Of a stretch of 59,384 nucleotides of DNA, positions 1-1,181 are shown in pieces. Positions within the stretch are counted from its first letter, which is position 1, and each line of letters opens with the position of its first letter. Below the pieces are notes generated by a model. That model made no database searches and was not told the DNA's origin. It worked only from the letters and a program-made list of their open reading frames with translations. Origin of the DNA: Gemmatimonadota bacterium (GTDB lineage: Bacteria > Gemmatimonadota > Gemmatimonadetes > Longimicrobiales > Gaopeijiaceae); assembly GCA_028874995.1 (NCBI GenBank), contig JAPPGM010000064.1:1-59384 (forward strand), in the 5' to 3' direction. Position numbers and translations under genes: made by a program.

Positions 1-38
1 AGCCGTAGGGGAACCTGCGGCTGGATCACCTCCTTTCT
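1..38 (+). rRNA. rrs: 16S rRNA, 3' end (partial)
   Basis: The first ~38 bases match the universal 3' terminus of bacterial 16S rRNA: the helix-45 hairpin GTAGGGGAACCTGCGG, then GGATCACC and the anti-Shine-Dalgarno CCTCCTTT. The gene is cut by the left edge of the window. The mature end should lie near 36-38. Position 24-33 (GATCACCTCC) is the sequence bound by the Era KH domain, and era is the next gene. No ITS tRNA and no 23S/5S rRNA follow, so this 16S copy is not part of a classical 16S-23S-5S operon on its 3' side. Confidence 0.95.
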
Positions 39-52
39 GGAGTTTCGAGTAA

Positions 53-76
53 GGGTGGCCCCGCAGGGGGTCGCCC
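53..76 (+). other. Hairpin between 16S rRNA and era
   Basis: Bases 53-62 pair with 67-76 over all ten positions (eight Watson-Crick and two G-U pairs) around a GCAG tetraloop. No T-tract follows, so it does not look like an intrinsic terminator. It could be a processing stem for the 16S precursor or a structure in the era leader. The function is inferred only from position. Confidence 0.5.
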
Positions 77-89
77 GGAAAGATTCTCA

Positions 90-1181
90 GTGTCTACCCG
101 TCCGCTTCTCATGACCGTCGATTGTTTTTCGACGCATTCCGCTTCCCCGGATGAAGCGGAGACGCGCCCCCGCCATTCAGCGCCAAGCGCCGGCGTCGCA
201 TGGGAGGACGGCGGGGCGCAGCGCTTCGATCACGACCTCATGGACGCAGAACCGGCAGCCCACCGCACCAGCAGCACGGCGCCCGCCGAACCCGGCCGGG
301 CGGGATACGTCCTCCTGGCGGGCCTTCCGAACGCGGGGAAATCCACCCTGCTCAACGCGCTCGTCGGCGAGCATCTGAGCATCGTCACGCCCAGGGCGCA
401 GACGACGTGGCAGCGGGTGGCGGGGATCCGCACCGAGGCCGGTGCCCAGATGGTGTTCCTGGACACCCCCGGGATCGTGACGAATCCGCGGCTCTTTCAC
501 CGCTCGATGCTCGCCGAGGCGGAGGGGGCCCGCGGCGAGGCCGACGCGGCGGTGGGAGTCGTGGATGGAACTTCACCGGGTTCCCCGGAGCAACGGCAGA
601 TGCTTCTCGACTTCCTGGGGCGGTGCCGGTGTCCGGCGGCGCTCGCGGTCAACAAGGCCGACCACCGCCGGTTCGACCCCGGGCCGGGCGGAGAGCTCGC
701 TCGCACGCTGGGAGTCCCCGCCTTCGGCATCTCGGCGCGCAAGGCGTCCGGACTCGGTCCACTGCTGGCATTCCTGCGCTCCAACCTCCCTGAAGGGCCC
801 TTCCTCTATCCCGAGGACGACATCGCAACAGCCTCCACCCGGTATTTCGTGCGGGAACTGGTGCGCGAGACGGTGTTCGAGAACTTCCGCCAGGAGATCC
901 CGTACTCGGTCGCGGTGCGCGTGGAGGAATTCCGCGAAGGAGAGGACCCCGTGTACATCGCCGTGAGCCTGTACGTCGAGCGGAAGTCCCAGAAGGGGAT
1001 GCTGATCGGGAAGGGCGGGGCGGGAATCAGGGCCGTCGGCGCACGCGCACGGCCCAAGATCGAGCACCTTTTGGGCCGACGGGTGTATCTTGACCTGTGG
1101 GTGAAGGTCTGGCAGGGATGGACTCGCAGCAAGGAGGGACTCAGTGCTTTCGGATACAGGGTACCCGATGACATTGCATGA
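90..1181 (+). CDS. era: GTPase Era
   Basis: Ras-like GTPase needed for 30S assembly and 16S 3'-end maturation; its C-terminal KH domain binds the 16S tail. Visible motifs: G1 GLPNAGKST, G3 DTPGI, G4 NKAD, G5 SARKASG, then a KH domain with GMLIGKGGAGIRAVG and the RRVYLDLWVKVW ending typical of Era. The reading frame opens at GTG 90 and gives 363 aa, about 60 more than usual. The first ~70 residues have no Era homology, so ATG 240 (313 aa) is a likely alternative start, although neither start has a clear Shine-Dalgarno. It lies 52 bp after the 16S rRNA end and may be co-transcribed with it. The 3' end overlaps the next gene. Confidence 0.95.
   Translation: MSTRPLLMTVDCFSTHSASPDEAETRPRHSAPSAGVAWEDGGAQRFDHDLMDAEPAAHRTSSTAPAEPGRAGYVLLAGLPNAGKSTLLNALVGEHLSIVTPRAQTTWQRVAGIRTEAGAQMVFLDTPGIVTNPRLFHRSMLAEAEGARGEADAAVGVVDGTSPGSPEQRQMLLDFLGRCRCPAALAVNKADHRRFDPGPGGELARTLGVPAFGISARKASGLGPLLAFLRSNLPEGPFLYPEDDIATASTRYFVRELVRETVFENFRQEIPYSVAVRVEEFREGEDPVYIAVSLYVERKSQKGMLIGKGGAGIRAVGARARPKIEHLLGRRVYLDLWVKVWQGWTRSKEGLSAFGYRVPDDIA

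Follow-up and report, generated by a model that had tools for sequence, protein, structure and literature searches.

A 16S rRNA gene followed directly by era in a genus of Gemmatimonadota

Layout of the 16S-era junction

The window, which is the whole stretch of 59,384 bases analyzed here, forms the first part of the 83.8-kb contig C154 from a MAG of 191 contigs and 4.52 Mb (G000). As the preliminary description stated, it opens with the 3' end of a 16S rRNA gene: positions 1 to 36 (+ strand) are 100% identical to positions 1527-1562 of a full-length 16S rRNA of the same genus. This 36-nt stub is too short for Rfam; the full-length 16S rRNA in locus L038 scores 1584 bits against RF00177. Within the stub, GGATCACCTCC at 23-33 combines the Era target and the anti-Shine-Dalgarno, and the known target of Era, GAUCACCUCC, lies at 24-33, where it had been placed before. 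The 16S end is followed on the + strand by a trailer (37 to 90), kept in 14 same-genus junctions and made up of conserved CTGGAGTTTCGAGTA, a variable hairpin, and GAAAGATTCTCA. Next comes the 3' strand of a pre-16S processing stem (97 to 126, +; CCCGTCCGCTTCTCATGACCGTCGATTGTT), complementary to the leader block TTGACAATCGAGGTCATGAGAAGCGGGCGGG. The remaining spacer (127 to 239, +) is unconserved, and we found neither an intrinsic terminator nor a sigma70-consensus site in it when looking for both. In agreement with the earlier reading of this DNA, the window has no tRNA or 23S gene between the 16S end and the Era open reading frame. A 5S gene is absent there as well, and the 16S end and the Era frame lie on the same strand. 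The gene order after the stub is era, a PorV/PorQ-family gene, prfB, and lysS.

The era gene (240 to 1181, +) encodes 313 amino acids with a GTPase and a KH_2 domain. Its assignment is a confident call from the profiles: the product passes both NCBIfam equivalog cut-offs (NF000908, 276.6 bits with a cut-off of 237; TIGR00436, 196.3 bits with a cut-off of 116.25), contains the Pfam domains MMR_HSR1 (PF01926) and KH_2 (PF07650), and has Era structures, including 1wf3, 1ega, and 3iev, as its best solved relatives. Era is a low-abundance GTPase that checks the 3' end of the 16S RNA. The protein of the window is predicted to bind GAUCACCUCC at the 16S 3' end and to act in 30S maturation; an Era-RNA complex has been described (PMC9032327). 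The PorV/PorQ-family gene (1168 to 2172, +; NF033709, 102 bits with a cut-off of 90) overlaps the era stop codon, is also found 3' of era in loci L038 and L163, and is the probable second gene of the era transcript. Its product is an outer membrane protein, the gene for which would share the transcript of era.

The position of the era start codon had to be revised. The preliminary description let era begin 52 bp after the 16S gene. The GTG at position 90 only gives the longest open reading frame and lies just 5' of the processing-stem strand, in a stretch that is non-coding across the genus. We rejected this codon because the spacing between stem and P-loop varies through all three phases among the 14 genomes of the genus and because three of them carry an in-frame stop about 10 nt 5' of the ATG aligned with window position 240. 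This ATG, about 200 nt behind the 16S gene, is most likely the coding start. Across the genus, the distance from the 16S end to era ranges from 106 to 202 nt.

The junction in the genus and the separate 23S-5S unit

The window begins at base 1 of contig C154, and the concern about a misassembly at its left edge, raised in the preliminary description, was fair. A short-read contig from another locus might have been joined to the conserved 16S end. Short-read assemblies typically break inside the 16S gene, most of the same-genus junction contigs do break there, and joins of this kind occur, as one genome discussed below illustrates. Yet the same junction, a 16S 3' end and then era, is present in 14 of 14 same-genus genomes in which it is readable, the one of the window included, and these come from several projects. 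In genome G009 (L038), a complete 16S gene (4265-5826), preceded by tRNA-Arg and tRNA-His genes, lies with era inside the 306-kb contig JAJDUP010000006.1.

The processing stem provides the best argument against an artifact. All 12 same-genus leaders read contain the block TTGACAATCGAGGTCATGAGAAGCGGGCGGG some 170 nt 5' of the 16S gene, with one substitution in G002, and in each genome with both sides available it forms 20 to 22 uninterrupted pairs with the trailer (window 97-126), compared with at most 13 to 17 for shuffled trailers. A foreign 16S join would not supply a matching strand. The 13 further genomes, the internal junction of L038, and a stem that brackets the 16S gene remove the edge concern and refute a chimeric contig for the genus; an artifact is thus extremely improbable. 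The junction is real and native to the genus.

At the C19 contig end of a public MAG (G006; L156:4035-4608), the 16S gene is followed by tRNA-Ile and tRNA-Ala, as in a normal ITS. The leader of this copy carries the stem strand of the genus, but its trailer has no partner (longest complementary run, 10), and the two tRNA genes are additional to copies that the genus shares elsewhere. We rejected this case as a counter-example, as it is a probable chimeric contig end. The era gene is only apparently absent from G001, G021, and G017, where a block of 5000 N covers the locus; such blocks lie over the 16S-era stretch in L154, L155, L158, and L007 (G001, G021, G017, and part of G020) and measure 5000 bases in three of them. 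The leader-trailer stem offers a simple sequence test to tell true from chimeric 16S junctions in metagenome assemblies.

Where are the other rRNA genes? A DNA search for 23S placed 23S-5S in a separate unit. Its distance to the era/prfB locus is about 240 to 250 kb in G001 and G021, both one-contig genomes; in G009, the unit and the 16S gene share a contig and are 242 kb apart. The 16S and 23S genes are not adjacent in these three genomes, i.e., they are unlinked. About 320 nt upstream of the unit is a promoter of the TTGAC-N17 type, and 5S is followed by a G+C-rich terminator hairpin; in the MAG of the window, the 5S gene is located terminally on a different contig (C29). The preliminary description had proposed looking in relatives for the 16S-era adjacency and for the location of 23S-5S, and both bear out the layout that it described. 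The 16S gene at the junction could still be a remnant, with an ordinary 16S-ITS-23S-5S operon elsewhere, in keeping with the incomplete 16S genes of most of these MAGs. We regard this as scarcely credible, given the full-length, high-scoring 16S gene at the junction in L038 (G009) and a 23S locus with its own promoter and no 16S gene within at least about 3.4 kb upstream (G001, G021, G017, and G006). Moreover, neither a linked 16S-23S copy nor a second junction was found in 23 genomes, of which the one-contig genomes read N over the 16S-era stretch.

rRNA genes next to era across Gemmatimonadota

Our survey of the era locus covered 108 Gemmatimonadota genomes. In 44 of them, era has a 5S gene no more than 500 bp upstream, and complete genomes such as G093, G118, and G169 show the full order 16S-23S-5S-era. 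Another state, with a 16S gene within 350 bp upstream of era, was found in 29 of the 108: 14 belong to the genus of the window (g1), one each to g11 and g32 of the same family, and 13 to g64 of another family, where the full junction is internal in L274. In 20 genomes, rRNA genes are absent within 0.7 to 7 kb of era. These include all four genomes read from f9, which stands outside the class, so the rRNA-era linkage looks like a class-level trait. The Era tree, a single-gene tree made by a quick method and with some weak forks, implies that the locus switched between 5S-era and 16S-era three times or more. Judged from these loci, the adjacency of rRNA genes and era is older than the unlinking of 16S and 23S. 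The novelty claimed for the era adjacency has to be narrowed: an rRNA neighborhood of era is not new to this lineage; most of the class has era behind 16S-23S-5S, and the direct 16S-era contact is what is left once 23S-5S has gone. Intermediate states of linkage exist as well, with about 1 to 5 kb between 5S and era (L170, L040, L042, L249, and L256).

Applying the same rule (a strong hairpin plus a T run) to all spacers, we found a strong intrinsic terminator before era in 39 of the 44 linked 5S-era spacers and none between 16S and era in the genus of the window (0 of 14) or in the main g64 group (0 of 12). The terminator is kept in the sister genera g11 and g32, which also have 16S-era, and in the g64 member L283. 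The separate 23S-5S unit now has a terminator after its 5S gene, so a joint departure of 23S, 5S, and terminator is the simplest history.

In 9 of 12 same-genus leaders, a consensus rule detected an rrn promoter, TTGACA/TTGACG and TACNNT/TATCAT separated by 17 nt, roughly 300 nt 5' of the 16S gene. The sigma70-consensus rule also misses the leader promoters in g64 and finds no site in any of the 44 linked 5S-era spacers, although era must be transcribed there. We therefore rejected a missing promoter consensus as proof of co-transcription. In linked relatives (e.g., L200, L189, and L191), era often starts only 20 to 70 nt behind the rrn terminator, again with no sigma70-consensus site; a leaderless promoter and terminator read-through are candidates for its transcription in such genomes.

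The pre-16S stem is kept in g64 with a different sequence, GTGAGTGACTTGTGGG pairing with CC[T/C]GCAAGTCACTCAC, in a spacer that is only about 120 nt long, stem strand included. Pairing that persists despite a changed sequence points to compensatory change and supports a functional stem. Leader-trailer anatomy of this kind is expected for a duplex that is cut by RNase III to release pre-16S (PMC8708148).

Expression of era behind the 16S gene

The sequences establish the layout, the stem, the lack of an intrinsic terminator, and a promoter-like site about 300 nt upstream of the 16S gene. As the best explanation overall, we think it likely that era ancestrally stood behind a single rRNA operon in the class (16S-23S-5S-terminator-era), that 23S-5S is gone from this place, and that era, directly behind 16S, is read from the 16S promoter, with a cut in the stem freeing its mRNA. 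The loss of 23S-5S together with the terminator probably joined era to the 16S transcript. In the genus of the window, 23S-5S sits at another place with its own promoter and a terminator behind 5S, and the 16S gene has its promoter, leader, and stem, with era directly 3'. Transcription from the 16S promoter most likely continues into era, no intrinsic terminator lying between. Leader and trailer would pair into the pre-16S stem, and an RNase III-type enzyme would cut it, as the stem and known 16S processing suggest; the two products of the cut would be pre-16S and an mRNA that is either monocistronic or covers era and porV. Era output would then track 16S synthesis. Co-transcription of 16S and era, and a coupling of Era supply to rRNA synthesis, may thus exist in these bacteria.

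The main competitor of this explanation holds that era is transcribed alone, from a spacer promoter that is leaderless or departs from the consensus, that rRNA transcription ends by Rho or another non-intrinsic signal, and that the contact is a neutral relic of the 23S-5S loss. The lack of an intrinsic terminator is compatible with Rho-dependent termination, which is invisible to a sequence rule, and the lack of a sigma70 consensus is weak evidence: in the linked relatives, era is transcribed 3' of a terminator although such a consensus is lacking, so a promoter of this kind must be possible, and the leader promoters of g64 likewise escape the rule. The terminators kept in g11, g32, and L283 fit independent transcription too. 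Still, the terminators of 39 of 44 linked spacers are gone from 26 of 26 spacers in g1 and the main g64 group, which are independent lineages; the whole g64 spacer, with its stem strand, leaves about 120 nt, and the g1 spacer 3' of the stem is unconserved. We consider independent transcription rather unlikely, though by no means negligible.

Read-through from the 16S promoter raises questions of its own. One era mRNA per 16S rRNA would far exceed the usual need for Era, so one would expect an unstable message or partial termination. The layout does not require coupling, nor is coupling a general need, because a terminator insulates era in the linked relatives and in g11, g32, and L283. Era supply may be functionally tuned to 16S, or era may only be carried along. 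We see even chances for the broader proposal of a class-wide linkage of the rRNA operon and era that turned into a true 16S-era transcription unit in two or more lineages, where the cut of pre-16S also frees the era mRNA.

rRNA operons carry tRNA genes and rarely have a protein gene in their transcript. The most familiar connections of era with 16S maturation involve protein partners. Brewer et al. reportedly described unlinked 16S and 23S rRNA genes in 2020. Such genes are well known (PMC8997704), and the present case resembles them in that 16S and 23S-5S lie far apart, each with its own promoter. It differs in having the gene of a 16S maturation protein directly 3' of 16S and, in the genus of the window, an intact pre-16S stem, whereas the stem has degenerated in unlinked archaea (PMC8997704). 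The rnc and era genes of gammaproteobacteria lie on one transcript that is cut by RNase III (PMC10582724, PMC8708148). There, too, era expression goes together with 16S maturation, and RNase III cleaves upstream of era, as predicted here; but the partner is the gene of the RNase III protein. In the present case, the 16S rRNA itself takes this role, and the pre-16S stem would serve as the cleaved duplex. A review lists ybeY, ybeZ, rnc, rsmE, and lepA as ribosome-related neighbors of era (PMC10582724). The common theme is that era lies beside genes whose products act on the 3' portion of 16S, but the synteny section of this review names no rRNA gene, and its text does not include Gemmatimonadota. 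In the literature searched, we found no report of era next to rRNA genes or of unlinked rRNA genes in Gemmatimonadota, which does not prove that there is none.

In summary, a conserved rRNA-era linkage with repeated loss of 23S-5S, and with loss of the terminator in two lineages, amounts to an experiment of nature on what keeps rRNA genes linked. It also bears on the possibility that the dose of a maturation factor is set by its substrate. If era is indeed read from the 16S promoter, the supply of the maturation factor Era would be tied to its substrate RNA, the 16S rRNA.
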